Below are positions 33,543-50,279 of a stretch of DNA of 64,000 bases, piece after piece; the stretch's first letter is position 1; each line of letters starts with the position of its first letter. The stretch spans positions 186,001 through 250,000 of the forward strand of contig WYBP01000011.1 in the NCBI GenBank assembly GCA_011525845.1, given 5' to 3'. The translations under genes and the position numbers were made by a program. The notes under the pieces were generated by a model. It made no database searches. It saw nothing but the letters and a program-made list of their open reading frames with translations, and was not told where the DNA came from. This stretch comes from Gemmatimonadaceae bacterium (GTDB lineage: Bacteria; Gemmatimonadota; Gemmatimonadetes; Gemmatimonadales; Gemmatimonadaceae).

Positions 33543-34517
33543 TTAGCGTCCGCGGGGGCTCTCGCACGAGCGCACGACCGCCAGTGCATTCCCCACCGCG
33601 CGCTCCCCAGTGGGGTCCGACGGTCGGTTCGCCACGCGCAGCGCGCGGGCCGAGTCGGGGTCCGCGAACACCAGCGCGGTGGATCCGCCCCCGTCGAGGT
33701 TGAGCGCCTCGCGGGCGCCGAGCGCACGCATCAACGTCGCCAGCTCGCGCAGCGTCATCCCGTCGCTGTACGGCTTCTGCCGGCCGTCCACGACCACGAG
33801 CAGAAGGCGCTTGCCGTCGTCCGCGAAGCCAACGGCCGTGCGCGGGTGCCGCCCAGTGGCGAATCCCGGCCCGCCCTCGGTGTCCACGGCGTCGCCCACG
33901 ACGCTGTCGCGCACGAGGACCGGACGGCCGCCCACCGCCTCCATTGGATGGAGGGGCGCGAGCGACACGTGGGCGAGCGCCGTGTCGTCCACCGCGAAGG
34001 CGCCGCCCCCGCGCACCGAGAGCGTGAGGATGTGCGGCCGGCCGGCCGAGTCGATCGCGAAGACGGGGCGCGCGATGGGCGGCGTCACGACGCGCCCGGC
34101 CGAGACGTGCGCCCCTGTCGGCACACCGGCGGGGGTGAAGAGGAAGAAGTCCGCGTTCACGCCGCCGACGACCTCGTGACCCGATGCGAGTTGCCGCAGG
34201 AGCGCCGAAGTCGTGGTGCGGCCCACCGCGCTCACGCCCCCCTTCAGCGCGACCACACGGTGGCACTGGTCGAGCCGGACGTCGAGCACGTGGATCGCCC
34301 ACGGGCCGGTCGAGGAGTAGACGAAGAGACGCCGCGCACCGGGCCCGAGCTCCTGTCCCCGCACGGTGTCCGCCGCGAACGGGAAGAGGGTCGGCGCGGG
34401 CGGTTCACCCGACGCGCGTGAAGCGCCGCCGCACGCGGCGGCGGTCGCGAACGCGACCGCGAACGCGGACGCCGTCGCGATCGCGTTCGTGACAGTGCGT
34501 GCGCGGTACGCGCTCAG
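33543..34517 (-). CDS. Phosphodiester glycosidase (NAGPA) domain lipoprotein, CTG start proposed
   Basis: About 324 residues. A lipoprotein signal (SAYRARTVTNAIATASAF... ending TAAAC) shows where the protein must begin, yet no ATG, GTG or TTG exists in frame close upstream of it. A CTG at 34517 overlaps the M14 stop as CTGA and gives M-SAYRAR, so a CTG start with translational coupling is proposed. The NAGPA domain is clear: GGVNADFFLFTPAGVPTG, RHPRTAVGFADDGKRLLLVV and EALNLDGGGSTALVF. This family removes phosphodiester-linked sugars, as in uncovering enzyme or cell-wall/exopolysaccharide remodelling. The upstream in-frame extension lies inside the M14 gene and is arginine-rich low-quality sequence, so it was rejected. 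Confidence 0.82.
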   Translation of the reverse strand: MSAYRARTVTNAIATASAFAVAFATAAACGGASRASGEPPAPTLFPFAADTVRGQELGPGARRLFVYSSTGPWAIHVLDVRLDQCHRVVALKGGVSAVGRTTTSALLRQLASGHEVVGGVNADFFLFTPAGVPTGAHVSAGRVVTPPIARPVFAIDSAGRPHILTLSVRGGGAFAVDDTALAHVSLAPLHPMEAVGGRPVLVRDSVVGDAVDTEGGPGFATGRHPRTAVGFADDGKRLLLVVVDGRQKPYSDGMTLRELATLMRALGAREALNLDGGGSTALVFADPDSARALRVANRPSDPTGERAVGNALAVVRSCESPRGR

Positions 34518-36289
34518 GGGAGCCAGTACCGCGTGCGGTTCGCCTCGCCGAAGCGCGTCACCTCGAGCAGCGACATCGGCTGCGGCTCCACGAGCCGCAT
34601 CATCGGCACGCGCTGCTTGCGCGCCATCATCGCGGCGGCCTGCGCCTCGACCTGCGTGCGCTGCTGCGGCGTGAGCGAGCTGATGTCGGTGTCGCCGAGC
34701 ATCCCGCGGATCGCCTCCTCCACCGTCGCCGGGCGCACCTGGAGGACGTTGTCGAGCCATCCCCAGGTGATGACGTTGTCGTCCGTCTCCGGCTCCAGCA
34801 GGTAGGAGATCAGGTTGCCGCGGCTCTGCGCGGTGCTCACGAAGTACCACCCCACCGGCACCGCGACGCGCTCCACCTTCTTCTCCACTCCGGTCACCGA
34901 CTTCAGGTAGTGCCCCTGGAAGTACTCGTTCCGCTGGATGCCGGTGGCGTCGTACACCTCGAGCGAGAGCGTGTCGGGGGCGGTGAAGCGGTGCACCTGG
35001 ATGCCGTGGTCCATGAGGAGCGGGACGATCTTCGCGATCGAGGCGGGGAGCACGTAGCCGCGCGCGCGCGGCACGGTGCGCGTGACGTCGTACTTGAGCC
35101 AGACCGGCACGGTCTGCAGCGCGAAGGTCTGCGCGGCGCCCTGTCCCCCCTGCCCGCCCTGCCCGCCGCCGGGGCCCCCGCCGCCCTGCGACATCCAGAC
35201 GGGCTCACTGCCGCGCGAGACGAGCGTGTAGTCCACCACCACGGCATCGGCGGGCGTCGGGTTGGCGCCGGCGCGGATCGCGCGCATGCGCGAGGCGCTC
35301 GTGAGCGCGCGGATCTCGCTCCGCTTCTCGCGCGCGTGACCGAGCACCGCGCGCATCCCGATCACCTGCCCGCGCACCTGGTGCCGGTAGCGCTCCGGCT
35401 GCGGGATCGCCTCCACGGCGCCGTTCCGCACGCGGTGGCTGCTCGACGGCGTCTCGAAGAGGATCCCGATCGAGTTGGTGAGCCCGGTGTAGACGTGGTG
35501 CTTGCGCGGCTCCACGGAGGTGGAGCCCCACCCGCGCACGCCGTCGCGCGTCTGCGCACCCGAGTAGTCGAACCCGTCGTACCCTTCGGCCCGCAGCGCC
35601 GTGCGCATCCGTGGGAAGATCTTCTCGTACGGATAGGCGCGGAGCTGCGCATCGGCCGCGGGGTTGAGCGTCGCCTGCCAGGTGAGGGTGTAGGGCGCCG
35701 AGCCGCCGTGGTGCGTGTCGATGTGGATGTCGGGCGTCCAGACGTTCATCACCTGCGTCACCAGCGCGTAGATCTCCTGCGACTCGAGCTTGAGGTAGTC
35801 GCGGTTCATGTCGAACCCTTCCTCGTTCGTGCGCCGCCGCACCTCCCCGCCGTCCGGGTTGATGAGCGGGATGAAGAGCACGATCGCGCTGTCGAGCACG
35901 GGGCGCAGGTCGCCGAAGACGAGGTCGCGCGCGACGAGCTGCGACGCCTCCTTCCCCGCCGTCTCGTTCCCGTGCACCGCGTTCGCGATCAGCACGATGG
36001 TCTTGCCGCTCCGGAGCGCGTCCTGCGGCGTCGCGATCGGGTCCTTCGAGATCGTCACGAGCGTGAACTCGCGGCCGAGGAGGGTCTGGGTGAGCGGACG
36101 GATGCTCACGAGGTCGCTCATCCGGTCGAGCTCGTACCAGAACTTCATGAGCGGCTCGAAGGGCGTCGGGCCGGACTGGAAGTCCTTCTCCTCCTGCCAG
36201 GTGCGCGGGAGTTGCTGGGCGTCGGCCGCCGCGGGAGCGATGGCGACGGCGAGGAGGACGAGTGCCGCGAGGAGCGAGCGCGTGCGCAT
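34514..36289 (-). CDS. Exported M14-family zinc carboxypeptidase
   Basis: 591 residues from ATG 36289, which starts a signal peptide (MRTRSLLAALVLLAVAIAPAAADAQ). The M14 zinc site is H106-x-x-E109 in HGNETAG with the later His in HIDTHHGGS (193/194); MNRDYLKLE follows family pattern, and the candidate catalytic Glu is in ILFETPSSSH. The C-terminal half adds a family-specific beta-rich domain with a Gly-rich patch (GGGGPGGGQGGQGGQG). It cleaves C-terminal amino acids from peptides outside the cytoplasm. Its stop overlaps the next gene by 4 nt (CTGA). Confidence 0.92.
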   Translation of the reverse strand: MRTRSLLAALVLLAVAIAPAAADAQQLPRTWQEEKDFQSGPTPFEPLMKFWYELDRMSDLVSIRPLTQTLLGREFTLVTISKDPIATPQDALRSGKTIVLIANAVHGNETAGKEASQLVARDLVFGDLRPVLDSAIVLFIPLINPDGGEVRRRTNEEGFDMNRDYLKLESQEIYALVTQVMNVWTPDIHIDTHHGGSAPYTLTWQATLNPAADAQLRAYPYEKIFPRMRTALRAEGYDGFDYSGAQTRDGVRGWGSTSVEPRKHHVYTGLTNSIGILFETPSSSHRVRNGAVEAIPQPERYRHQVRGQVIGMRAVLGHAREKRSEIRALTSASRMRAIRAGANPTPADAVVVDYTLVSRGSEPVWMSQGGGGPGGGQGGQGGQGAAQTFALQTVPVWLKYDVTRTVPRARGYVLPASIAKIVPLLMDHGIQVHRFTAPDTLSLEVYDATGIQRNEYFQGHYLKSVTGVEKKVERVAVPVGWYFVSTAQSRGNLISYLLEPETDDNVITWGWLDNVLQVRPATVEEAIRGMLGDTDISSLTPQQRTQVEAQAAAMMARKQRVPMMRLVEPQPMSLLEVTRFGEANRTRYWLP

Positions 36290-36342
36290 GCGGATTCCGG
36301 GGTCGAGGAGTGAGGACGGGAGCGGGTGTCCGGGATGCACCA

Positions 36343-39300
36343 TCAACGCGCCGACGTGCCCGCCCGCTGAAGCACCGCCGTGAAGCGGGGCCGTCCGTCG
36401 CGTTCAAGATGGTAGGTGAGCCGCTGCCCGTCATCGCTCAGCGTGATGGTCCAGACGTTCGTCGTGGCCGCGGGGATTAGCCGGGCGGTGTGCGCGTCCG
36501 CGGGGAAGGACTGCGAGCGCGCCGTGCCGCCCGCGCGCGCCATCCCGCCGTAGAGGTTCACCGGGTCGGGGGACCCGTCCTTGAGGCGATGGTCGTGCTG
36601 GAGATGCAGGGTGCCGGCGCCGCGCGTGAACACCCAGGTGCGCGAACGGTCCGCGCCCACGATGAATGGCACCCGCACCTCACGCTCGGAGCAGCTCGCG
36701 AACTCGGCCACGAGCAGCTGGCCGTGGAAGGCGTCGGTCGTGTCGTCCGGAAAGGTCTTCGCGCCCTCGAAGCGCGCGCCGCAGCTGGAGCGCAGCAGGG
36801 CGAAGAACTGCCCGCCGGCGTCGGCCGCGCCCGGCGCGGGCGCCGCGGCGGAGAGCTCCGCCAGCATTCCCCGCAGGAACTCCTCCTGCTGTCGCTGCAA
36901 CTCGGTGAGCGGTCCCACCTCGTCACTCGCCGCGCCATAGAGCCGTGCCGCGCGAGAGGCGAGCTCGGTGGTCTCCGGCGTGCGGCGGCGCGTGGCGAGC
37001 GCGCGCGTCTCGTTCCGCAGCGCCGCCAGCCGCCGCAGGGTCTCGGTCCACGCGCGGCGCACCTCGGGGCTCACCTGGATCCGCGGGTCCTCACGCACCT
37101 CGAGGCTCCCCGTCGCGGTCGCCGCGCCCGCCGCGAGGCGCACCTCGTAGCGACCGAGGTGCACGTGCGGTCCGTTCTGCGCATAGCGCAGGTCCCAGAC
37201 CGCGCGGTTGAGCCCGGCCCGACCCGCCACGCGCATGCGCGCGACCTCCGCGCCGCCCGTCTCATGGAAGGTCAGGGTCACGCTGTCGGCCGCGCGGAGC
37301 CAGAAGTCGATCAACCCACCGGCCGGCGGGTTCGGCGCGGCGTAGAACACATCTCCCACATGCGGGAGCTGGTCGTTCCGCCGCACCTGCTCGGCCGGTC
37401 GCATGGTGAAGAGGTGCGCGGCCTTCGCCGCGACCGCGGGCGTCAGCTCCCGCAGCGCGTTCACCTGGTCGTAGATGTAGATGCCGCGCGAGTGCGTGCC
37501 GAGCACGAGGTCGTGCTCGCGCGGGTGGACGAAGAGGTCGTTGAGCGCCATGAGCGGCATCCCGCCGCGCAGCTCCGCCCAGGTGCGGCCGCGGTCGTTG
37601 CTCCAGAAGAGCCCGAGCTCGGTGCCGAGGAAGAGCACGTCCGGGTTCACGAGATCCTCGCGGAGCGTCCGCGCCACGCGCGCTGCCGGCAGCCCACCGT
37701 CGATGCGCGTGAAGGTCCGACCGTCGTCGTCCGTGCGGTAGACGTAGTTGGCGAAGTCGCCGTTCCGGTAGTTGTTCGCGACCACGTACGCCCGCGCGCC
37801 GGAGTGGCGCGACGTCTCGATGCCATTGATCCACGAGCCGCGCGGGAGTCCCGGGAGCCGCGAGGCGAGCTCGGTCCAGGTCGCGCCGTCGTCCCCGCTC
37901 CGCTGCACGTTCCCGTCGTCCGTCCCCACCCAGAGCACGCCGCGCCGCATCGGCGACTCGGCGATCGCGCTCACCGAGGGCCAGTAGGGCACGCCGTCGT
38001 CGAGCGAGCGCGTGGACTGCGTCGGCATCTCTCCCATGATCGGGAGGGTGCGGCGGTCGATGCCGGTGGTGCGGTCGCCGAGCGCGGTCCAGGTGTCGCC
38101 GCGGTCGGTGCTCTTCCAGAGGATGTTGGTGCCGGTGTAGAGCGTGCGCGCGTCGTGGTGCGAGATGAGGATCGGCGCGTCCCAGTTGGCGGGCGCCATC
38201 GCGTTGCCCAGCGGCTGCGGTGCGGCACCCGGGTTCCCCCAGAGGGACCAGTTGCGGCGCGCGCTGATCGCACCGGTGGGGTCGCCGGGGCGGATCGGGC
38301 GCTCCTCTCCCGTCTCGAGATCGCGCCGCGAGAGGCCGAGGAACTGCGAGGCGGTGTAGAGCGTGCGGTTGTCGGTGGTGTCGACCACGTTGAAGAAGCC
38401 GTCCCCGCCGCCCCAGCGCACCCAGTCGGTGTTGATGATCCCTTCGCTGCGGTAGGTGGCCGACGGGCCGCTCCAGGAGCCGTTGTCCTGCAGGCCGCCG
38501 TAGACGCGGTAGGGCTTCCGCATGTCGAAGCTCACGCGGTACCACTGGCTCACCGGCAGGTCCGCGATGAAGAGCCAGGTGGTGGCGCGGTCGTAGCTGA
38601 TGCCGATCCCGCCGTCGTCCGCCTTGATGTGGTGCAGCGGGTTCGCCGGGTTGATCCAGAGCATCCGGTCGTCGCCGTGGAGCGACTGGTCCACCGACTT
38701 CGAGGTCTTGCCGCAGTCGGTGGAGACGGAGAAGAAGTTGATCATGTAGATCCGGCAGGGGTCCACCGGGTCCACGATCACCTGGCTCCCGTACATCGGA
38801 CGCGGGTTCCAGGTGCTCTGGTGCGTGAACGACTCGCCGCGATCATCGGAGCGATAGAGCCCCGCCTGCGGCTCCTCGTACGCCGTGGAGGCGGTGTAGC
38901 GGAGGCCCTGCTCCACGCTCACGTACACGATGCGCGGGTCCGCGCGGTGGATCCCGATGCCGATGCGGCCGTGGTCGCCGGACGGGAGTCCGCGCGTGAG
39001 CTTGCGCCAGGTGTCGCCGCCGTCGGTCGACTTCCAGAGCGCGCTCCCCGGCCCGCCGCCGTTGAACCCGAACGGCGTGCGCCGCCGCTGGTAGCTGGCG
39101 GCGTACATGATCCGCGGGTCGGTGGGATCCATCGCGACGTCCACGACGCCCGTATTCGCGTCCACGTGCAGCACGCGCTGCCAGGTCGCGCCCCCGTCGC
39201 GCGTTCTATAGAGACCGCGCTCCTCGTTGGCCGCCCAGAGCTCGCCCATCGCCGCGACGTACGCGACCTGCGTGTCCTCCGGGTGCAGCACGATCCGCCC

Positions 39301-39750
39301 CACGTGCGCCGAGCCGCGGAGTCCCACGTTGCGCCAGGTGGTGCCGCCGTCGCGCGAGAGGTACACACCGTCGCCCCACGAGGAGCTCTGGCGGCTCGCG
39401 CGCTCGCCGGTGCCCACCCAGACGATCGACGTGTCGCGCTGGTGGAGCGCGATGGCGCCGATCGAGTGCGTGCCCGCGTCGCCGAAGAGCGCGGTGAAGC
39501 TCGTGCCGTTGTTGGTGGTCTTGTAGAGGCCGCCCGTGCTCGAGGCGGCGTAGAAGACGTGCGGCTGCGCCTCGTAGACGGCGAGGTCCACGAAGCGGCC
39601 GCTGACCATGGCCGGGCCGAGGTGGCGCGGGCGCAGGCCGTCGGTGAGGGGGGTGGCGGGGGTCTGCGCGGCGAGCGGCAGGCCGAGGACGACGGCGAGT
39701 GCCGCGAGGGCGGCGCGCGCGGCTGGGGCGGAGCGAGTGGTGTTGGGCAT
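36343..39750 (-). CDS. Exported Asp-box (sortilin/sialidase-like) propeller protein
   Basis: 1135 residues from ATG 39750, which begins a signal peptide (MPNTTRSAPAARAALAALAVV... ending LAAQT). At least nine Asp-box motifs of the S-x-D-x-G-x-T-W type occur, such as SRDGGTTWRNV, STDGGDTWRKL and SNDRGRTWAEL, making one or two large beta-propellers of the VPS10/BNR type over about 35-760. A beta-sandwich and a helical segment follow, and a small C-terminal domain. No sialidase catalytic residues are recognised. These secreted proteins, often labelled glycosyl hydrolases, are abundant in Gemmatimonadota; the role is probably binding. It leads the block with the M14 and glycosidase genes. Confidence 0.87.
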   Translation of the reverse strand: MPNTTRSAPAARAALAALAVVLGLPLAAQTPATPLTDGLRPRHLGPAMVSGRFVDLAVYEAQPHVFYAASSTGGLYKTTNNGTSFTALFGDAGTHSIGAIALHQRDTSIVWVGTGERASRQSSSWGDGVYLSRDGGTTWRNVGLRGSAHVGRIVLHPEDTQVAYVAAMGELWAANEERGLYRTRDGGATWQRVLHVDANTGVVDVAMDPTDPRIMYAASYQRRRTPFGFNGGGPGSALWKSTDGGDTWRKLTRGLPSGDHGRIGIGIHRADPRIVYVSVEQGLRYTASTAYEEPQAGLYRSDDRGESFTHQSTWNPRPMYGSQVIVDPVDPCRIYMINFFSVSTDCGKTSKSVDQSLHGDDRMLWINPANPLHHIKADDGGIGISYDRATTWLFIADLPVSQWYRVSFDMRKPYRVYGGLQDNGSWSGPSATYRSEGIINTDWVRWGGGDGFFNVVDTTDNRTLYTASQFLGLSRRDLETGEERPIRPGDPTGAISARRNWSLWGNPGAAPQPLGNAMAPANWDAPILISHHDARTLYTGTNILWKSTDRGDTWTALGDRTTGIDRRTLPIMGEMPTQSTRSLDDGVPYWPSVSAIAESPMRRGVLWVGTDDGNVQRSGDDGATWTELASRLPGLPRGSWINGIETSRHSGARAYVVANNYRNGDFANYVYRTDDDGRTFTRIDGGLPAARVARTLREDLVNPDVLFLGTELGLFWSNDRGRTWAELRGGMPLMALNDLFVHPREHDLVLGTHSRGIYIYDQVNALRELTPAVAAKAAHLFTMRPAEQVRRNDQLPHVGDVFYAAPNPPAGGLIDFWLRAADSVTLTFHETGGAEVARMRVAGRAGLNRAVWDLRYAQNGPHVHLGRYEVRLAAGAATATGSLEVREDPRIQVSPEVRRAWTETLRRLAALRNETRALATRRRTPETTELASRAARLYGAASDEVGPLTELQRQQEEFLRGMLAELSAAAPAPGAADAGGQFFALLRSSCGARFEGAKTFPDDTTDAFHGQLLVAEFASCSEREVRVPFIVGADRSRTWVFTRGAGTLHLQHDHRLKDGSPDPVNLYGGMARAGGTARSQSFPADAHTARLIPAATTNVWTITLSDDGQRLTYHLERDGRPRFTAVLQRAGTSAR

Positions 39751-39773
39751 GCGCAAAGATGCGCCAACACCGC

Positions 39774-41823: not shown

Positions 41824-42558
41824 CTAGGGCTTGGTCGCCGCAAACCCCGAGACGTGCGCGTCGGTGTTGTGCCCGAACCGCACGCCCACGTAGCCGTCGA
41901 GCGTCTTCACCTTACCCTCGCCGATCAGGTCGGCCTTCGGATAGCTCGCGACCTCCTGCCCGTTGATCATGCAGGAGACCTTGTCCCCTTTCACCTGCAT
42001 CGCGATCTCCTGCGTCACCGGCTGGTCCTTCCCCGCGGCCTTGTTCACGGCGGGGTGATCGTCACCGGCGCGCCCCGCCGACATGGCGAAGGTGCCGCGC
42101 GGCGCGGTGGAGGAGAACCCGCGGAAGATGAACTTCCCGTTCCCGTAGGCGGCGCAGTAGAGGAAGTTCGGGGACTCGCTCTCGAGGTCGTTCCCCGCGA
42201 TCATGATGCCGTACGGATGCGGGTGGTTGTTCAACCCCATGTACTTCGACTCGTTGAACGTGGCCTTCACCATGTAGTCGCCCGTCATCTTCTTGGAGGC
42301 GTCCCAATAGGTGGTGGCGGGGCCGGTCGTGACGTGCATGCCGCTTCCCATCTTCTGGATCTTTGCGTCGGTGATCTTGAGGCCGCGCCGCGCTTCCGCC
42401 GCGTCCACGACCCCCTTCCAGCCCGCCATCAGTATCCCGCCGTCCTTCACGGCGATGGACTCCTCGCCGGCCTGGGCGTGGAGGAGCGTGAGCGGCGACG
42501 CGACGGCGATCGCCAGGGCGGCCAATGTGGTCCGGGTGAACCTCGTGGTGGTGCGCAT
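41824..42558 (-). CDS. Exported ConA-like (DUF1080-type) hypothetical protein
   Basis: 244 residues from ATG 42558, preceded by AAGGAGTACC and starting a signal peptide (MRTTTRFTRTTLAALAIAVA... ending LLHAQ). The mature part looks like a jelly-roll/concanavalin-type domain: GGILMAGWKGVVDAAEARRG, a TYWDASKKMTGDYMVKATF strand pair, YGIMIAGNDLES, and a final GYVGVRFGHNTDAHVSGFAA that matches the usual last strand of DUF1080-like folds. It probably binds sugar or another ligand in the periplasm; no catalytic site is seen. The stop lies immediately next to that of the convergent gene. Confidence 0.75.
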   Translation of the reverse strand: MRTTTRFTRTTLAALAIAVASPLTLLHAQAGEESIAVKDGGILMAGWKGVVDAAEARRGLKITDAKIQKMGSGMHVTTGPATTYWDASKKMTGDYMVKATFNESKYMGLNNHPHPYGIMIAGNDLESESPNFLYCAAYGNGKFIFRGFSSTAPRGTFAMSAGRAGDDHPAVNKAAGKDQPVTQEIAMQVKGDKVSCMINGQEVASYPKADLIGEGKVKTLDGYVGVRFGHNTDAHVSGFAATKP

Positions 42559-42670
42559 ACGGTACTCCTTGCTGGATGGAGAGGACTGCACTCCTATCGT
42601 ACGGCCCCCGCGGGCCAGCGTCCAGCGAACTGAGGCCGCGCACCACGTAACGTCGGTGGCACGGTGTGCG

Positions 42671-42681: not shown

Positions 42682-45099
42682 ATGACACCCTCCCCCATCC
42701 GCGCCCTCCTGCTCGGCGCCCTGCTGCTCGGCGCGACCCACGCCGCCGCCCAGCAGCTCCCCAGCTACGACCGCACCCTCCTCCTCGAGACGACGTCCGA
42801 GACATCCGCCAACGCGAGCTTCGGCGACCTCGACGGCGACGGCCATCTCGACATCGTCCTCGCCAAGGGGCGCCACTGGCCGCTCGTGAACCGTGTACTC
42901 CTCGGCGACGGCAAGGGCGGGATCAAGCGCGCATACGACCTCGGCACCGCCTCGGACAAGACCTACTCCGGCCGGCTCGTGGACATCGACGGCGACGGTG
43001 ACCTCGATGTGGTGATCAGCAACGACCAGCCGAGCCCGAAGCTCGTTCATCTCAACGACGGGAAGGGTCGCTTCACCGTCGGCTCCGAGTACGGCAAGCC
43101 TGACTGGCCGATGCGCAACGCCACCGTCGCGGACATGAATGGCGACGGCCGCCCCGACATCATCGCCGCGAACCGGTACGGCCGCACGGCGGGCTCCAAC
43201 TACATCTGCCTCAACCGCGGCGCCGGGAAGTTCGACGCCGACTGCATCCCCTTCTCGGCCGAGCCCTCGACGACGATCACCGCCGCGGACTTCAACGGCG
43301 ACGGCCTTCCCGACCTCCTCGTCCCGCACCGGAACGGCGGGCAGAGCCGCCTCTACCTGGGCACCAAGGGCGCCGACCTCGCGAAGCTGCGCAGCGTGCC
43401 CTTCGGCCCCGCCGACGCGCAGATCAGGATCGCCGAGGCAGCGGACGTGGATGGCGACGGGAAGCTGGATGTGGTGACGATCGACGAAGCGAAGGGCGTG
43501 ATGATCCATCCCGGGAAGGGAGACGGGACCTTCGGCGCGCCGCGACTGCTCGCGGACCGCACGGTGGTCCCGTACGCGCTCACCATCGCCGACCTCGACA
43601 AGGACGGCCGGCAGGACATCATCGTCGGGAACGTCGAGTCTCCGACGGTCGCGTACTTCAACGGAGGCGCGGGGAAGCCCTTCACGCCGGTGAAGTTCGG
43701 CGACGACAAGGGCACCGCGTACGGCATCGCCGTCGCCGACTTCGACGCGGACGGACGCGCCGACATCGCGGTCGCACGCTCCGAAGCGCCGAACGCGCTC
43801 TATTTCGCGGGCGGCGCGGCATCGCCCGCCGCGCAGCAGGCCGCGCTCCAGCCCGGCCAGCTCCGCCTCACCTACATCGGCAACGCCGGCTGGGAGATCA
43901 CCGACGGCAAGATCGTCGTCCTGGTCGATCCCTTCCTGTCGCAGTTCGCGCGCTGGCGCCCCGGCGGCACGCAGGACCCGGCAATGGACGCACCCTATCA
44001 GCCGGATACGGCGTTCATCGCGGAGAAGATCAAGCGCGCGGACTACATCGTCATCACGCACGGCCACTCCGACCACGCGCTCGACGCGGGCGTGATCTCG
44101 CGTCGCACCGGCGCGGTGATCATGGGGAGCGAGACCGTCGCCAACCTCGCGCGCGCCTGGGCCGTGCCGGACAGCAACCTCATCACGGTGAAGGGAGGCG
44201 AGGACTACGCCTTCGACGAGGGCTTCTCCGTGCGCGTGGTGCCGAGCATCCACAGCGCGCTCGACGACAAGCGCTACTTCAACAACGGGCGCGGCATCGC
44301 GGGCACCGCGCCGCGCGGGCTCAAGGCACCGCTCACCCGCCGCGACTACCAGGAGGGCGGGAGCTTCGCGTACCTGATCCGCATCGGCGGGCACGAGGTG
44401 CTCGCGATGGGGTCGATGAACTATCTCGAGCGCGAGATGGAGGGCCTCCGCCCGAACGTCGCGCTCGTCGGCGCGAACAGCCAGCGCCTCGAGATCCACG
44501 ACTTCACCGGCCGCCTCATGCGCGCACTCGGCTTCCCCGCCGTGGTGATCCCCTCCCACGCGGACGGCTACGGCAACCCGAACCCCGGGGCCGCGGCGCT
44601 CGCGGACAAGCAGCTCTTCGTCAAGGAGGTCAACGCCGCCTCCCCCGCGAGCCGCGTAATCGTCCCCACCTGGTTCGAACCGATCGTGATCCCTGCGCGC
44701 GCGACGGCCACCGGTGAGCGCCGCCGCATCGACCCGGCGGGCCTCGCCCCGCTCGTCCCCGCCTTCTCGATCGCCATCCGGGACGGCGACCTCGTGTTCG
44801 TCTCCGGCATGACGGGCGTGAAGCCCGGCACTCAGGAGATCATCGAGGGGGGCGTCGGCGTGCAGACGCGGCAGGCGATGGAGAACATCCGCACCGCGCT
44901 CGAGGCGGCCGGCGCGCGGATGTCCGACGTCGGCGAGTGCACGGTCTTCCTCGTGGACATGGCCGACTACGCCGCGATGAACGCGGAGTACATCAAGTTC
45001 TTCCCCGTGGACCCGCCGAGCCGCGCGACGCTCTCGGTGACCGCGCTGCCGAGGCCGGCCGCGCGGGTGGAGATCAAGTGCAGTGCGAGGGTGCGATAG
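42682..45099 (+). CDS. Exported fusion: FG-GAP propeller, metallo-beta-lactamase hydrolase, RidA domain
   Basis: 805 residues from ATG 42682, starting a signal peptide (MTPSPIRALLLGALLLGATHAAAQ). Residues of about 40-380 hold exactly seven calcium-type D-x-(D/N)-x-D-G-x-x-D motifs (DLDGDGHLD, DIDGDGDLD, DMNGDGRPD, DFNGDGLPD, DVDGDGKLD, DLDKDGRQD, DFDADGRAD), one seven-bladed FG-GAP/VCBS propeller. About 392-680 is a metal-dependent MBL hydrolase (LVDPFLSQF; THGHSDHALDAG, near 457-468; SIHSAL). About 681-805 is a RidA/YjgF domain with VFVSGMTGV, the conserved Arg in PPSRATLSVTALP and the Glu in ARVEIKC. RidA proteins normally deaminate reactive enamines in the cytoplasm; an exported, tethered RidA is unusual. 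One continuous frame links all three parts. Confidence 0.9.
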   Translation: MTPSPIRALLLGALLLGATHAAAQQLPSYDRTLLLETTSETSANASFGDLDGDGHLDIVLAKGRHWPLVNRVLLGDGKGGIKRAYDLGTASDKTYSGRLVDIDGDGDLDVVISNDQPSPKLVHLNDGKGRFTVGSEYGKPDWPMRNATVADMNGDGRPDIIAANRYGRTAGSNYICLNRGAGKFDADCIPFSAEPSTTITAADFNGDGLPDLLVPHRNGGQSRLYLGTKGADLAKLRSVPFGPADAQIRIAEAADVDGDGKLDVVTIDEAKGVMIHPGKGDGTFGAPRLLADRTVVPYALTIADLDKDGRQDIIVGNVESPTVAYFNGGAGKPFTPVKFGDDKGTAYGIAVADFDADGRADIAVARSEAPNALYFAGGAASPAAQQAALQPGQLRLTYIGNAGWEITDGKIVVLVDPFLSQFARWRPGGTQDPAMDAPYQPDTAFIAEKIKRADYIVITHGHSDHALDAGVISRRTGAVIMGSETVANLARAWAVPDSNLITVKGGEDYAFDEGFSVRVVPSIHSALDDKRYFNNGRGIAGTAPRGLKAPLTRRDYQEGGSFAYLIRIGGHEVLAMGSMNYLEREMEGLRPNVALVGANSQRLEIHDFTGRLMRALGFPAVVIPSHADGYGNPNPGAAALADKQLFVKEVNAASPASRVIVPTWFEPIVIPARATATGERRRIDPAGLAPLVPAFSIAIRDGDLVFVSGMTGVKPGTQEIIEGGVGVQTRQAMENIRTALEAAGARMSDVGECTVFLVDMADYAAMNAEYIKFFPVDPPSRATLSVTALPRPAARVEIKCSARVR

Positions 45100-45106
45100 C
45101 TATCGC
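45093..45106. repeat. 14-bp palindrome spanning abutting convergent stop codons
   Basis: GCGATAGCTATCGC is a perfect palindrome. Its centre is TAG|CTA, the stop codons of the fusion gene (+) and the DUF885-like gene (-), which touch without a gap. It could form a short hairpin in either mRNA. Confidence 0.8.
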
Positions 45107-46878
45107 GGCGGGATCGGTGCGTCGGCCGAGAGCTGGCGCACCATCCGGTCGTCCCCCGTCACCTCCCACATGATGAGGCTGACGGGGATCATCCCCACCG
45201 CGTTCACCTCGTCGAGGAAGCGCTTGAAGGTGAACGCGCTCCCGAGCTGCCGCGCGCGGATCGCCATCACCTCCTCCATGAGCCGCCCGCCGGTCACGTA
45301 GACCGCGCCGTATCCGGGCTGCCTGAGGTAGAGGTGCTGCTCGAACCCGAGGAGCGGGTCGCGCCGCATCCAGCCGCGCGGCGTCCAGTCCACGTGGATG
45401 TTCCCCGCTTCCTCCATCGTGAGTTCGTTGGAGTGCGCATGGAGGTTCCCCAGCCCGCGCGCGGCGCGCGTGATGAGCATGATCCAGACGATCTCGCGCG
45501 AGCGCGGGCTCGCGTCGTAGAGCCCGGCGTGCATCATCCACTCCTCCATGGAGGTCGCCATCCCCTCCGAGCGGCTCATCCAGACGTTGTAGCGGAGGGG
45601 GGTGCGACGGATCGGGCTCGCGTGCGGCTGCTCACGGAAGCGCGCGTTGTCCCACCAGTGGTAGAGGTGCGTCCAGAGCGGGAGCGGGTCGCGGTGGTTC
45701 CCCTGCGAGAAGAAGTTGCGCGTCGCCGAGGGCGAGAAGCCCGCCATCCGTTCGCGCAATGCGCGCTCCATCCAGGGCTCCACCGTGATCACGTCCTTCT
45801 CGCGCAGCCAGGCCATGTAGCGCGGGATCGCCCGCGCCTGCAGCGCCGCGTACGCCTCCGGCGTGTCCGCCACCGGGAGCTCGGGGAGCCCGCGGTTCCG
45901 CTGCTCCTCCAGCCGCAGCGACGCGTGCGCGCGCATCAGCTCGCGCTGCGTGATCGTCACCTCGTCCTCCCAGGACAGCGGCATCAGGAGCACGTTGCGC
46001 AGGAACCAGGTGTACTGCTCCTTCCCGATCCCCGAGGGTCCCGTCTTCTTCGGGCTCTCCGCGCGCAGCCACTCGGCGAACTCGTGCGTCGCGGTGCGTG
46101 CCTCGGTGATCGCCGCGGCGAGCGCGGTGCTGGCGGCGCTGCTTCGCGCGCTCGCGGGCCCCACCGTCCGCACCCGCTCGAGGAGCGTGCCGAGCGCCTC
46201 CTCCTGTTCCTCGAAGGCGCGCACGCCACCGATCCAGAGGTCGCGCGCGTTCGCGTCCGCGAGGTTCACGCGCGCCTGCCGGAGGAGCACCGGCACCGTG
46301 CGCAGTTCGCCGGTCAGGCGTTCCGTCTGTTCAGCGGAGAGGGGCTTGACGGTGTCGAGCACCGTGCGCGGCCAGATCGGGTACTGCCAGAGCCGGATCG
46401 CGCCATGGATCGTCGGTCCCTCCTCGGCCGGCGTGTCACTCTCGTCCGTGCGCACCGAGGCGTAGTAGGCCGGGTCGCGCGCGAAGGGCTGGAGCACCGT
46501 CAGGTGGTAGCGCATCCCATTCATCTCGGCGCGCACGAGGTGCAGGTCCACCTGCTCCGGGATCGACCAGCCCGTGGTGTCGATCTCTCCCACTCGCCGG
46601 ATGAAGAAGTCGAGCTGCACCAGCCGCCGCTGGTTCCGCTCCGGCGTGTAGTCGGGGATCCCGTTCTCGCGCGGCGGTTCCTCGAAGCCGCGCCAGTTCT
46701 CGAAGATGATGACGAGTTGGCGGTAGGTGGGGCTCGCAGGGCGCGGGGCGGCGGGGGCCTGGGCCGGCGCGGTCGCGCTCGTCACGGCCAGCAGCGCGAG
46801 GCCGGTGATGAGGGCATACGCGGGCCTGGCGCCAGCGGCGCGAGGAATCAGGGAGCGAATCGCGAGGGGGATCGGCAT
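45100..46878 (-). CDS. Exported DUF885-like (M32-related) protein
   Basis: 592 residues from ATG 46878, with an AGGAttcccg ribosome-binding site and a signal peptide (IPRAAGARPAYALITGLALLA... ending APAQA). The helical sequence resembles DUF885: an S-R-S-E-G-M-A-T-S-M-E-E motif matches the family's Y-S-E-G-W-A-L-Y-x-E, and the C-terminus has FTFKRFLDEVNAVGMIPVSL, like the family's final helices. The H-E-G-x-P-G-H metal motif of active members is not found (the region reads NFFSQGNHRD), so peptidase activity is doubtful. It lies 43 bp after the M28 peptidase gene, same strand, probably the same operon. Confidence 0.75.
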   Translation of the reverse strand: MPIPLAIRSLIPRAAGARPAYALITGLALLAVTSATAPAQAPAAPRPASPTYRQLVIIFENWRGFEEPPRENGIPDYTPERNQRRLVQLDFFIRRVGEIDTTGWSIPEQVDLHLVRAEMNGMRYHLTVLQPFARDPAYYASVRTDESDTPAEEGPTIHGAIRLWQYPIWPRTVLDTVKPLSAEQTERLTGELRTVPVLLRQARVNLADANARDLWIGGVRAFEEQEEALGTLLERVRTVGPASARSSAASTALAAAITEARTATHEFAEWLRAESPKKTGPSGIGKEQYTWFLRNVLLMPLSWEDEVTITQRELMRAHASLRLEEQRNRGLPELPVADTPEAYAALQARAIPRYMAWLREKDVITVEPWMERALRERMAGFSPSATRNFFSQGNHRDPLPLWTHLYHWWDNARFREQPHASPIRRTPLRYNVWMSRSEGMATSMEEWMMHAGLYDASPRSREIVWIMLITRAARGLGNLHAHSNELTMEEAGNIHVDWTPRGWMRRDPLLGFEQHLYLRQPGYGAVYVTGGRLMEEVMAIRARQLGSAFTFKRFLDEVNAVGMIPVSLIMWEVTGDDRMVRQLSADAPIPPR

Positions 46879-46921
46879 CGGGAATCCTGTGAACGTGGAA
46901 TGGCGCCGGCGACGGATCAGG

Positions 46922-48493
46922 TCAGCGCTCCAGCTTGAACCCGGCATCCACGGCCGGCCGCCGCGGCGCGTTCGCCACGTACCATCCCGTGAGATACATC
47001 CACTGCGCCATCCGCGTGAGCTTGGCGTAGTCGATCCGCTCAGGGATGTCGCCGGCCGTGTGGTAGTCGTCGTGGAGGTTCGTGGTGTACATGAGCGCGG
47101 GCACGCCCAGCCGCGCGTACGGCAGGTGGTCGCTGCGGAAGAACCACCCCTCGGGATGGGTGGGACGGTCCCAGAGCGTGTCGATCACGAAGCGCGCCGT
47201 GGCCGCGTTGGCCTGGAGCGCCATCTGCACGAGCTCGGTCGAGCTCCGGTGCGGCGGCTGCGCGCCGAGGAGTGCGGCGGTGTCGGGATGGTTGCGGCCG
47301 ATCATGTCGCCGTTGAGCACCGCGACGACCTGCGCGAGCGGCACCACGGGATGCGCCGAATGGTAGCGCGACCCCAGGAGGCCACGCTCCTCCGCTCCAT
47401 GATGCACGAAGAGGAGTGACCGCTTCGGGCGCTCGGCCACGAAGGCGCGCGCCGCCGCGAACTCGGCCACGCTCACCGACGCGTTGTCGTCCGCGCCCGC
47501 GAGCACCGAGTCGCCCGGCACGAGCAGGCGCACGCCGTTGGCGTCCTGGTGCGAGCTGTAGAGCACGTACTCGTCGCGCAGCACCGGGTCGGTGCCGCGG
47601 AGCAGGCCGATCACGTTCACCGAGGGCGTCTCGAAGCGCTCGAGGCGCACGGCGAGCGAGACTTCGGGCGCCTGCTGCAGCGCGGCGCCCATCGCTGCCC
47701 GCATCAGGAACCCGGGAGTGGGACCGGCGCCCTGCACCGGCGGAGGTGACACGCGGTCCGATCCACCTGCCGCGCGCGGCGTGGCGTTGTCCACGTCGTA
47801 CGACCCCCGCTGCCGCATCACCGCCATCGCCTCGAAGGCGCTGTCCACGGGGGCGTTGGCCACGAGCAGCACGGCGGCGGCACCGCGCCGCGCGAGGGGC
47901 GCGAGCGTGCCATTGATCGCTGCGTCCGCGTAGCGCACCCGGTCGGGATAGCTCGTCTGGCGGATCGCACCCGGAGCGGGCGCACGGAGCAGGGTCGCGA
48001 CGATCCGCCCGCGCACGTCCACGGTCGTGTCCGCCGGGTCGGCGATCCAGAGCACCGCACCCGTCGCTTCCACGGGAACGACACCGAGCGGGATGACGTC
48101 TTCATAGAGCCGCATCGCCTGCGCGGCGATCGTCGCGCGGCTCGAGGTCACGGAGACGCGCGTTCGGACGATGTTGAACCACTGGAACCAGGTGCCATCC
48201 GCACCGCCCGGCGCGAGGCCGATGCGCTGGTACCGATCGGCCACCCAGACGGACGCGCGCAGCTCGTCCAGCGTTCCGCCTTCGCGACCCCGCATCGCCG
48301 GGGAGGCCATGGCGAAGAGGTCGCGCTTGAGGTCGGCCTCGCGGATCTCGCGGATGGCGCGCGGCGTCGCGGGCATCTGCGCCGGCGCGGCCGATGGTGC
48401 CGCCGCAGCCGCGGGAGTCTGTGCGGAAAGTCCCGCGAGGACTCCGGTGGGCAGCGCGAAGAGGACGAGAAGGAAACGGAGGAGTGGGCGCAT
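46922..48493 (-). CDS. Exported M28-family zinc aminopeptidase
   Basis: 523 residues from ATG 48493, starting a signal peptide (MRPLLRFLLVLFALPTGVLAGLSAQ). All M28 two-zinc ligands are visible in order: His in LYSSHQD, Asp in GADDNASV, Glu-Glu in HHGAEERGLLGS, Asp in LNGDMIGR, and His in DDYHTAGD. A protease-associated-like insert lies before the catalytic part (about 130-290). It removes N-terminal residues from peptides in the envelope. Upstream, TATATG on the minus strand (48536-48541) is a possible -10. It is divergent from the amidohydrolase gene at 48639 and followed by the DUF885-like gene. Confidence 0.93.
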   Translation of the reverse strand: MRPLLRFLLVLFALPTGVLAGLSAQTPAAAAAPSAAPAQMPATPRAIREIREADLKRDLFAMASPAMRGREGGTLDELRASVWVADRYQRIGLAPGGADGTWFQWFNIVRTRVSVTSSRATIAAQAMRLYEDVIPLGVVPVEATGAVLWIADPADTTVDVRGRIVATLLRAPAPGAIRQTSYPDRVRYADAAINGTLAPLARRGAAAVLLVANAPVDSAFEAMAVMRQRGSYDVDNATPRAAGGSDRVSPPPVQGAGPTPGFLMRAAMGAALQQAPEVSLAVRLERFETPSVNVIGLLRGTDPVLRDEYVLYSSHQDANGVRLLVPGDSVLAGADDNASVSVAEFAAARAFVAERPKRSLLFVHHGAEERGLLGSRYHSAHPVVPLAQVVAVLNGDMIGRNHPDTAALLGAQPPHRSSTELVQMALQANAATARFVIDTLWDRPTHPEGWFFRSDHLPYARLGVPALMYTTNLHDDYHTAGDIPERIDYAKLTRMAQWMYLTGWYVANAPRRPAVDAGFKLER

Positions 48494-48638
48494 CGTGAGG
48501 CACCGCCGATGGTGGGGGATCACAGCTGGGCATATACTGCGCGGTCGGGTCCTCCGCTGTCGATGGTCCGTCGCCACGCCCTTCCCCTCCCCGCCCGGGC
48601 GCCCCACACTATCCCGACCCCGAACCCGACCCTTTCCG

Positions 48639-50279
48639 ATGAACATGATCCGCCACCTCTCGCTCCCGGCCCTGGCCCTCGCCCTCCTCGCCGCCGGCAC
48701 CCCCGCCGACGCCCAGTCCCGCAACCGCGCCACAACGGCTGCGCCCGCCCGTGACACGGTCGTCACACGCACGTACGGCGACCTCGCCGCCGGCCCCTAC
48801 AAGCGGCTCGTGATCCGGAACGCGATGGTGATCCCCGGCCATGGCGGACCGCCGGCCGGCCCCTACGACATCGTGATCGAGGGGAACATGATCACGGAGA
48901 TGATCCCCTTCGATCCCGTGGCCGCCGAGCGGCGCGGGAACTCGGATCGCCCCACGGGGGACCGCGTGATCGACGCCACGGGGAAGTTCGTGATGCCGGG
49001 GATGATCGACCTGCACGCGCACATCCGCACGCAGCCGATGGAGCTCGAGTACGTCTACTACCTCAAGCTCGCGCACGGCACCACCACGATGGTGAACGCC
49101 TCCGACCGGAGCGCGGACTCGTCGTACGCGCAGGCGCGCCTCTCCGCGCGCAACGAGATCCTCGCGCCGCGCATGTTCCCGCTCGTCGGCTGGGGCACCT
49201 TCACCAAGTTCTCGCGCATCGAGCTCGACGACCCCGCCAACGCCCCCGAGGTCGCCAAGCAGATGGCCGCGGCCGGCGTGCGGGTCATCTCCATGGACTC
49301 GAACGGGTGGAGCCGCGAGATCATCGGCGCCATCGCATCCGCGGCGAAGGCGAACGGGATGATCACCTCCTTCCACATCCCGCCGAGCACGATCGCCGTC
49401 GCCAACGCGGTCGACGCCGCCTGCCTCGGCGTCACCATGATCGAGCACCACTATGGATACGCCGAGTCCGCGCTCGACCGGAGCACGCAGGACTTCGAGC
49501 GCACCTACACTTTCGGTGACGAGAACGCGCGCTTCCGCGCCGCGGGGCGCGTCTGGACGGAGACGAACAAGGAGAAGCTCCTCACCACCGTGGTGGACTC
49601 GCTGGTGAAGTGCGGCGTGACGATGCTCCCCACGCGCGTGGTGTACGAGGCCAACCGCGACGTGATCCGCGCGACGAGCCTTCCCTGGCACGGGAAGTAC
49701 ACGCACCAGGCGCTGCTCAACTGGAACTATCCCAACCCTGCGTACCACGGCTCGTACCACTTCGACTGGACGAGCGACGACGAGGCGAACTGGAACCTCG
49801 CGTACGCGCTCTGGGGGCAGTTGATCTTCGAGTTCAACAAGCGCGGCGGCCGCGTCGCATTCGGCACCGACGACAACTACATCTGGGCGACGCCGGGGTT
49901 CGGCACCGTGCGTGAGCTCCAGCTCCTGCGCGAGACGGGGATGCACTCGCTCGAGGTGCTCCGCTCCGCGACGCGCAACAGCGCCGAGACGCTGCTCGAG
50001 CCGAAGCTCGGGCTGGTGCGGCCCGGATACAAGGCGGACCTCGCGATCGTCGACGGCAACCCCGCGGCGAACCTCAAGTTCATGTATGCGTTCGGCGACC
50101 TGACGCTCGACAAGGACGGGAAGATGGTCCGCACCACGGGCGTCGTGCACACCATCAAGGACGGGATCGTGATGGAGAACGCGAACCTGATGCGCGAGGT
50201 GGAGGCGATGGTGCGGAAGTCGAAGGCGGGGGTGTCGCCGGTGAACGTGATCTCGCGGCCCTTCCTGCCGGCGCCGTAG
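48639..50279 (+). CDS. Exported amidohydrolase, paralogue of the 12.2-kb gene
   Basis: 546 residues from ATG 48639, starting a signal peptide (MNMIRHLSLPALALALLAAGTPADAQ). Amidohydrolase features are YKRLVIRNAMVIPGHGGPP, MIDLHAH (H126, H128), GVRVISMDSNG, TSFHIPP, TMIEHHYGYAE, the aspartate in VAFGTDDN, and YKADLAIVDGNPAANLKFMY. It shares layout and many motifs with the protein at 12215-13882, including the D-x-V-I-D-A-x-G-(K/Q) segment before the barrel. Substrate unknown. A Ser/Thr kinase gene begins 48 bp downstream on the same strand, with its own candidate -10 box. Confidence 0.88.
   Translation: MNMIRHLSLPALALALLAAGTPADAQSRNRATTAAPARDTVVTRTYGDLAAGPYKRLVIRNAMVIPGHGGPPAGPYDIVIEGNMITEMIPFDPVAAERRGNSDRPTGDRVIDATGKFVMPGMIDLHAHIRTQPMELEYVYYLKLAHGTTTMVNASDRSADSSYAQARLSARNEILAPRMFPLVGWGTFTKFSRIELDDPANAPEVAKQMAAAGVRVISMDSNGWSREIIGAIASAAKANGMITSFHIPPSTIAVANAVDAACLGVTMIEHHYGYAESALDRSTQDFERTYTFGDENARFRAAGRVWTETNKEKLLTTVVDSLVKCGVTMLPTRVVYEANRDVIRATSLPWHGKYTHQALLNWNYPNPAYHGSYHFDWTSDDEANWNLAYALWGQLIFEFNKRGGRVAFGTDDNYIWATPGFGTVRELQLLRETGMHSLEVLRSATRNSAETLLEPKLGLVRPGYKADLAIVDGNPAANLKFMYAFGDLTLDKDGKMVRTTGVVHTIKDGIVMENANLMREVEAMVRKSKAGVSPVNVISRPFLPAP

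Follow-up and report, generated by a model that had tools for sequence, protein, structure and literature searches.

RidA proteins have, in our reading of the field, been studied mainly as cytoplasmic guards against the by-products of pyridoxal-phosphate (PLP) enzymes. Rid proteins typically form trimers, and RidA-type members bind carboxylates through an active-site Arg; replacing this Arg with Ala nearly abolished the activity of plant and Salmonella enterica RidA, and Tyr-to-Ala or Glu-to-Ala substitutions had little effect in the S. enterica protein (PMC4433059; here and below, papers are cited for the passages concerned). A hydrolase from a different setting, the metallo-β-lactamase (MBL) ThnS of the thienamycin cluster, is reported to show imipenem hydrolysis comparable to that of OXA-48 and NDM-1, with slower loss of penicillin G and cefotaxime (PMC8115136). 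Here we describe a gene of a Gemmatimonadaceae bacterium, found in a 64,000-nucleotide stretch of contig WYBP01000011.1 (assembly GCA_011525845.1, contig positions 186,001 to 250,000; hereafter the window), whose predicted exported product joins an FG-GAP propeller, an MBL-fold domain and a RidA domain. Sequence comparison indicates a real and conserved module, built of known domains in a combination that we did not find described. No account of an MBL-RidA or FG-GAP-RidA protein was found among the papers listed by searches of a collection with few subscription journals and no bioRxiv preprints, and the RidA passages of PMC9537276 and PMC12419801 describe none.

An earlier note, drawn from the letters of the window, had read the gene as one uninterrupted frame with a signal peptide, exactly seven propeller motifs, a THGHSDH metal site and a RidA domain complete with its Arg and Glu, and all of these features were recovered. 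A single frame runs on the forward strand from an ATG at 42682 to a stop ending at 45099, encoding 805 residues, with a GTG at 42664 as a possible alternative start. Residues 1-23 read by eye as a signal peptide, and THGHSDH occupies residues 459-465. The motif D-x-[DN]-x-D-G-x-x-D occurs exactly seven times (starting at residues 49, 101, 151, 203, 255, 304 and 353) against a mean of 0.0055 in shuffled copies of the protein, and Arg781 and Glu797 of the RidA domain are retained throughout the near relatives aligned. Pfam assigned FG-GAP_3 (seven stretches, 7.8e-53), Lactamase_B_2 (1.5e-9) and Ribonuc_L-PSP (1.1e-26), each above its cut-off. A predicted model, β-rich, reached a mean predicted local distance difference test score (pLDDT) of 85.5 and a predicted template-modelling score (pTM) of 0.56; by these scores the model is good for each domain taken singly but not for the way the domains pack together. 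Foldseek searches with the model returned MBLs (UlaG, TM_1162) and propellers, among them CRTAC1 and an N-acetylglucosamine lectin from a fungus, and the seven repeats together with the predicted fold identify the N-terminal part as a seven-blade FG-GAP propeller.

The earlier note had suggested looking for the same domain order in other genomes, and it was found, as one open frame with 74-76% identity, in a genome of the window's genus (G016) and in one of another genus of the family (G132). The ratio of nonsynonymous to synonymous substitution (dN/dS) against these two was 0.13-0.17 for the propeller, 0.20-0.21 for the MBL and 0.09-0.21 for RidA, and both have an MBL-RidA linker longer by 7 residues, a difference of complete codons. 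Because the open fusion recurs, dN/dS is low in each domain and the linkers differ by codon lengths, the fusion is, on these comparisons, genuine and under purifying selection. A frameshift artefact was ruled out by the same conservation and low ratios. That a sequencing or assembly error joined three neighbouring genes might seem to gain from relatives in which the parts are indeed separate neighbours, and from a genome (G024) in which the propeller part has a broken frame; against the two further open fusions, the low dN/dS per domain and the whole-codon linker differences, however, we regard this reading as already refuted unless one error is common to all three assemblies. The earlier note had also expected that RidA encoded as a separate gene in close relatives would speak against the fusion. 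Such genes do occur, in 7 of 24 loci, but they directly follow the MBL gene and appear exported, and they therefore support a joint function.

These loci came from searches of 61 genomes, 179 genomes of the family and 395 of the phylum, plus a contig scan, which, being confined to its best 80 loci, may miss fusions in other phyla. Twenty-five loci encode a near-class MBL, 67-78% identical to that of the window: 23 of the 24 family-genome matches, one locus from the phylum set (G354) and one from the contig scan (Sphingomonas sp. 35-24ZXX); the 24th family match (G032), 51% identical, was placed in a distant class. RidA directly follows the MBL in 24 of the 25, fused in 17 and as a separate gene in 7, and the remaining locus (G109) stops at a contig edge. 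The fused forms comprise propeller-MBL-RidA (G000, G016, G132), MBL-RidA-propeller in a single frame (G081, G166, G180) or with the frame broken inside the propeller (G024), MBL-RidA with an adjoining propeller gene (G090, G156, G173) and MBL-RidA with none adjoining (G007, G087, G093, G110, G130, G354 and Sphingomonas sp. 35-24ZXX). Split MBL and RidA genes are accompanied by a divergent propeller gene in G010, G079 and G089 and occur also in G088, G122, G123 and G126; all seven separate RidAs carry a lipobox or signal peptide by eye. Some loci scored as lacking an adjoining propeller (G007, G087, G110, G122) lie near contig ends or on short contigs. In Sphingomonas sp. 35-24ZXX (L032:6644-7660, minus strand), the MBL-RidA fusion is divergent from an apparently exported creatininase-family protein (PF02633).

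The place of the propeller varies, being N-terminal, C-terminal, in a gene next door or elsewhere; where none adjoins the MBL, it is usually found elsewhere in the genome. Of 23 genomes of the family that have the MBL, 20 have a propeller, versus 19 of about 155 without it (Fisher 6e-13, uncorrected for relatedness; family sets of 179 and 178 genomes, with G024 scored propeller-less either for its broken frame or because the genome was not in the set). In the propeller tree, N-terminal fusions form one clade (100/100), and C-terminal fusions (88/84) are nested in a larger clade together with stand-alone propellers (100/99); because the two kinds of fusion occupy separate clades, two separate attachments are the simplest reading of the tree. 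In the MBL tree, split forms are interspersed with fused ones at more than one point, with 10 of 26 inner branches left open. The near-constant pairing of MBL and RidA and the reshuffled orders bear out a functional link between the three domains, whose parts very probably act together outside the cytoplasm.

The RidA domain scored 93.6 bits against PF01042 (cut-off 27.3) and 86.6 bits against TIGR00004, below that profile's cut-off of 106.25. Its best solved relatives, at E-values of about 1e-20 to 1e-22, are of the RidA group (TdcF, UK114, Arabidopsis RidA), whose active-site residues have described roles (PMC4433059, PMC5979572). Like these, the window domain retains Ser708 (Ser30), Asn767 (Asn88), Glu797 (Glu120) and Arg781 (equivalent to Arg105); unlike them, it is exported by prediction, fused, below the TIGR00004 cut-off and has Phe695 at the Tyr17 position. 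Among 20 aligned near relatives (of 24 known, including the window domain and five of the seven separate-gene RidAs), Asn, Arg and Glu are invariant, and Ser and Tyr are each found in 19. The earlier note had set the export of this domain against a normally cytoplasmic RidA, a contrast that loses force in this group. Of 23 control RidAs taken from related genomes, 16 have a signal peptide or lipobox by eye, 6 have neither and 1 is unclear, a share biased upward by their choice for resemblance to the window RidA, and 3 of the 7 RidAs of the window's own genome have an export signal. We therefore rejected the idea that an exported RidA is surprising in itself. What is unusual is the steady coupling of RidA to one MBL and one propeller. 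Exported RidAs are numerous in the related genomes (L008-L030, L191-L197) and form an apparently neglected group.

The MBL domain has the HxHxDH motif, the downstream His ligands and the predicted fold of the superfamily; all 33 MBLs aligned keep HxHxDH and both the following and the final His ligand. The bridging Asp of the fourth motif is replaced, within G-S-M-N, by Ser in 32 sequences and by Gly in one. This Asp is not universal across the MBL superfamily. Among 72,556 plasmid records, the top-ranked match was an MBL on pSCAT of Streptomyces cattleya NRRL 8057 (E 7e-38, two records of the strain), with the next MBL at 1e-22 among the matches listed. By direct comparison, this closest CHARACTERISED relative is 37% identical over 287 residues (E 3e-48). 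It is surrounded by genes for an Asn_synthase protein, B12-radical-SAM proteins, PhyH, NUDIX and Peptidase_S58 proteins and a BTAD regulator. The plasmid record is unannotated in this stretch, and it is by cluster content and gene order that we take the pSCAT MBL to be ThnS. The thienamycin cluster with thnS has been located on a pSCAT of the same length (PMC8115136). The two proteins have in common the HxHxDH, His, His set and an ERE-x-x-G-L-RP stretch; ThnS has Thr at the bridging-Asp position, followed by x-N, and by eye a twin-arginine-like export signal. Unlike the window protein, it has no RidA or propeller part and is located in an antibiotic cluster. Full-length homology and a G-[STG]-x-N motif without Asp place the window MBL, by sequence, in a ThnS-like grouping that we define here; the motif is also present in two Embleya plasmid MBLs and absent from a Variovorax one. 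We treat the relationship to ThnS as a functional lead, not as proof.

Other described MBLs are more remote. The best solved-structure match is TM_1162 of UPF0173 (Z 23.4; root-mean-square deviation 2.4 over 216 residues), which is 24% identical and has Asp where the window's family has Ser; the UPF0173 profile PRK00685 gave 51.4 bits, below its 144-bit cut-off. The L-ascorbate-6-phosphate lactonase UlaG resembles the domain in fold (Z 20.1-20.2, ranking below several RNase J entries) at 20% identity, and keeps a second Asp, Asp226 (PMC3219644); its profile PRK11709 gave 21.4 bits, below the 306-bit cut-off. None of the plasmid records covers 80% of the MBL-RidA query. A phage origin was considered and dropped, one weak match being all that was seen.

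We propose that the exported protein works in two steps, the MBL cleaving an amide bond at an enamine nitrogen and the attached RidA hydrolysing the product, and we give this reading a probability of about 0.38. The MBL would act on an amide (or lactam) with its nitrogen attached to a carbon that carries both a carboxylate and a C=C bond, as in carbapenems, cephems and dehydropeptides, and would release a 2-aminoacrylate-type enamine or imine. The RidA domain, its Arg on the carboxylate, would then hydrolyse this product, yielding a 2-oxo acid plus ammonia (an amine in the case of a cyclic product), and the propeller may bind polymer, peptide or envelope, keeping the enzymes near their substrate. 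Dehydropeptides also contain the N-acyl-enamine unit. Opened carbapenems exist as enamine (2-pyrroline) and imine (1-pyrroline) tautomers (PMC6754457), and a cephem product has also been observed as an imine (PMC10148155). In our reading of the chemistry, the carboxylate beside the nitrogen renders these opened molecules 2-aminoacrylate-like. The order MBL then RidA is suggested because they are carboxylate-bearing enamines or imines, the class of substrate on which RidA acts. The earlier note had proposed that the MBL opens an amide or lactam and RidA deaminates the product; the first part has gained weight from the ThnS relationship, and the RidA active-site positions are kept in 19-20 of 20 sequences (the window's own Phe at Tyr17 aside), with the substrate still an inferred one. 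On the sequence evidence, a joint function is very likely and the two-step enamine chemistry plausible. The narrower version, in which a ThnS-type MBL and RidA form an exported catabolic machine for carbapenem-like, cephem-like or dehydropeptide natural products, seems to us doubtful.

The wider MBL family offers a view of the association at greater distance. A further 22 MBL matches in the 395 phylum genomes, 43-54% identical, form the distant class; counts cover 21 of these loci, with one at a contig end (G334) left out, and were made from six-frame open reading frames, since the gene caller missed genes in loci of low GC content. A propeller adjoins the MBL in 8 of the 21 and a Rid partner in 3, not counting RidAs that lie farther off (L167) or at the edge of the locus (L177). 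Two of the partners (L168, L169) are genes with three RidA domains in one chain, like the 3x-RidA proteins of Niehaus et al. 2015, which are presumed to be linked trimers (PMC4433059). The window protein differs from these in having one RidA domain, and the L169 chain in carrying an extra Amidohydro_2 domain; L169 has the order propeller, MBL, then 3x-RidA-Amidohydro_2. In this last gene (L169:5603-7624, minus strand) Arg and Glu are both clear, by eye, only in the middle RidA domain. In the third locus, a separate fusion of reversed order, a YjgF_endoribonc (Rid) domain precedes the MBL (L172:7282-8766, plus strand), with a signal peptide by eye. As the partners are of the 3x-RidA and YjgF_endoribonc kinds, the MBL appears to have formed its association with different Rid types.

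Around the window gene, a DUF885 protein and an M28 peptidase lie directly downstream in convergent orientation (45103-48772, minus strand), and an amidohydrolase lies farther along. Upstream are an M14 peptidase (34517-36346), a sortilin/Vps10-type protein (36346-39756) and a divergent, apparently exported protein that by eye is DUF1080/3-keto-disaccharide hydrolase-like (approximately 41824-42618, minus strand). In both G079 and G089, RidA is followed by an M1 peptidase and the propeller by an M28 peptidase. The neighbours of the window gene are compatible with peptide scavenging, and M1, M24, M28, M14 and S9 peptidases recur near the module. Their density, 5.8 and 4.8 per 100 kb around the module versus 2.5 in 40 control regions, is about two-fold higher; at least one such gene is present in 11 of the 24 near regions, 10 of the 21 distant ones and 13 of the 40 controls, and S9 taken alone is not enriched (8 in 45 module regions versus 13 in 40 controls). 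No single oxidase emerged as a conserved partner: a scan of called genes for flavin adenine dinucleotide (FAD) motifs picked out four genes at three loci (two in L149, one each in L176 and L182) and missed at least one that is visible by eye in L168. The two in L149 (4560-8877, plus strand; G081) encode FAD-type oxidoreductases, the second apparently exported; they lie immediately upstream of the MBL-RidA-propeller gene and are a possible source of imines. A lipoprotein asparaginase, a lipoprotein RidA and a propeller occur together in L258, L259, L260 and L264-L266 (G118, G114, G124), genomes with no near-class MBL among the family-genome matches, as if the asparaginase substituted for the hydrolase; a window-type RidA may therefore accept imines from more than one source.

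Features of the fusion gene (coordinates in the window)
Feature	Coordinates	Strand	Basis
Fusion gene, complete: signal peptide, seven-blade FG-GAP propeller, MBL, RidA; 805 residues	42682..45099	+	Frame and Pfam; same order in G016, G132
Predicted signal peptide, about residues 1-23	42682..42750	+	By eye: an Arg, a core rich in Leu and A-x-A preceding QQ; N-termini of relatives compared by eye
Seven-blade FG-GAP propeller, residues 28-380	42763..43821	+	Pfam, motif count, model, Foldseek
MBL-fold domain, residues 392-672	43855..44697	+	Pfam, alignment, structure comparison
Metal-binding H460-G-H462-S-D464-H465	44059..44076	+	Four ligand positions identical in 33/33 aligned MBLs
His524, third-motif metal ligand	44251..44253	+	33/33 aligned MBLs
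Ser578 of GSMN, replacing the usual bridging Asp	44413..44415	+	Ser 32/33, Gly 1/33; Asp in TM_1162 alignment
His626, last metal ligand	44557..44559	+	33/33 aligned MBLs
MBL-RidA linker, residues 673-690	44698..44751	+	7 residues longer in G016 and G132
RidA domain, residues 691-805	44752..45096	+	Pfam and comparison with solved relatives
RidA Arg781 (E. coli TdcF Arg105 position)	45022..45024	+	20/20 aligned near relatives
RidA Glu797 (Glu120 position)	45070..45072	+	20/20 aligned near relatives

Several observations weigh against the two-step proposal. No Rid gene is adjacent to the MBL in 18 of the 21 distant-class loci, and the window RidA itself departs from the other 19 at the Tyr17 position, where Ala, even so, did little harm to S. 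enterica RidA (PMC4433059). In the three asparaginase-bearing genomes, RidA and propeller adjoin a hydrolase of another kind, and a near-class MBL is not among the family-genome matches. Most relatives lack the peptidases that neighbour the window gene (M28 occurs at 6 of the 24 near loci and 4 of the 21 distant ones, M14 at 1 and 3 respectively), and the peptidase excess around the module is only suggestive, having been measured in related genomes with probes picked from the same neighbourhoods. The lead from ThnS is limited by the 37% identity and by the breadth of its reported activities: loss of cefotaxime took 24 h to appear, nitrocefin was not hydrolysed, and ascorbic acid, single-stranded DNA and RNA were also degraded, with nuclease activities persisting in the presence of ethylenediaminetetraacetic acid (EDTA) (PMC8115136). 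An alternative is two clean-up activities running in parallel at one nutrient-scavenging site, the MBL acting on an unrelated lactone or phosphodiester and RidA removing imines made by other exported enzymes. UlaG, a cyclic-AMP-binding MBL and RNase J are among the structural neighbours, exported RidAs without a window-type MBL are common, and the RidA-propeller pairs that lack a near-class MBL adjoin an exported asparaginase. Such a loose association, however, predicts a weaker linkage than RidA beside the MBL in 24 of 25 near loci, fused and split in several lineages, and we consider it possible, if on the whole unlikely.

Two further readings would make one of the catalytic domains incidental. 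RidA could be a scaffold whose trimer assembles three MBL-propeller arms; the trimeric habit of Rid proteins and the presumed linked trimers of 3x-RidA (PMC4433059), such proteins adjoining the MBL in L168 and L169, agree with this. The invariance of Asn, Arg and Glu in all 20 near RidAs, including five of the seven encoded by separate genes, which are unable to act as a covalent scaffold, makes this reading, with RidA chemistry as a by-product, improbable. Loss of the bridging Asp, replaced by Ser or Gly in 33 of 33 sequences, might instead indicate a little-active MBL serving as a receptor or adhesin in signalling or binding, to which we give slightly less weight again. The remaining metal ligands are invariant in the same 33 sequences, which argues against it. 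Ser578 presumably occupies the position of Ser221 in the class B3 enzyme L1. That residue contacts products in L1 (PMC10148155), and the thienamycin-cluster relative has Thr at the bridging-Asp position, with ThnS reported active (PMC8115136); we count both against a non-catalytic role.

If the narrower catabolic reading is true, the natural product would be taken apart completely, with release of its nitrogen, and not just inactivated. As far as we are aware, no enamine deaminase outside the cytoplasm has yet been described as coupled to the hydrolase that produces its enamine, and this protein would be the first. An exported RidA tied to one hydrolase in many genomes and several arrangements offers a concrete guess at the upstream enzyme and a testable class of substrates. 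The link to ThnS further suggests that carbapenem-cleaving MBLs may have their roots in a broader group of exported enzymes used for scavenging, a point of relevance to the origin of such activities.

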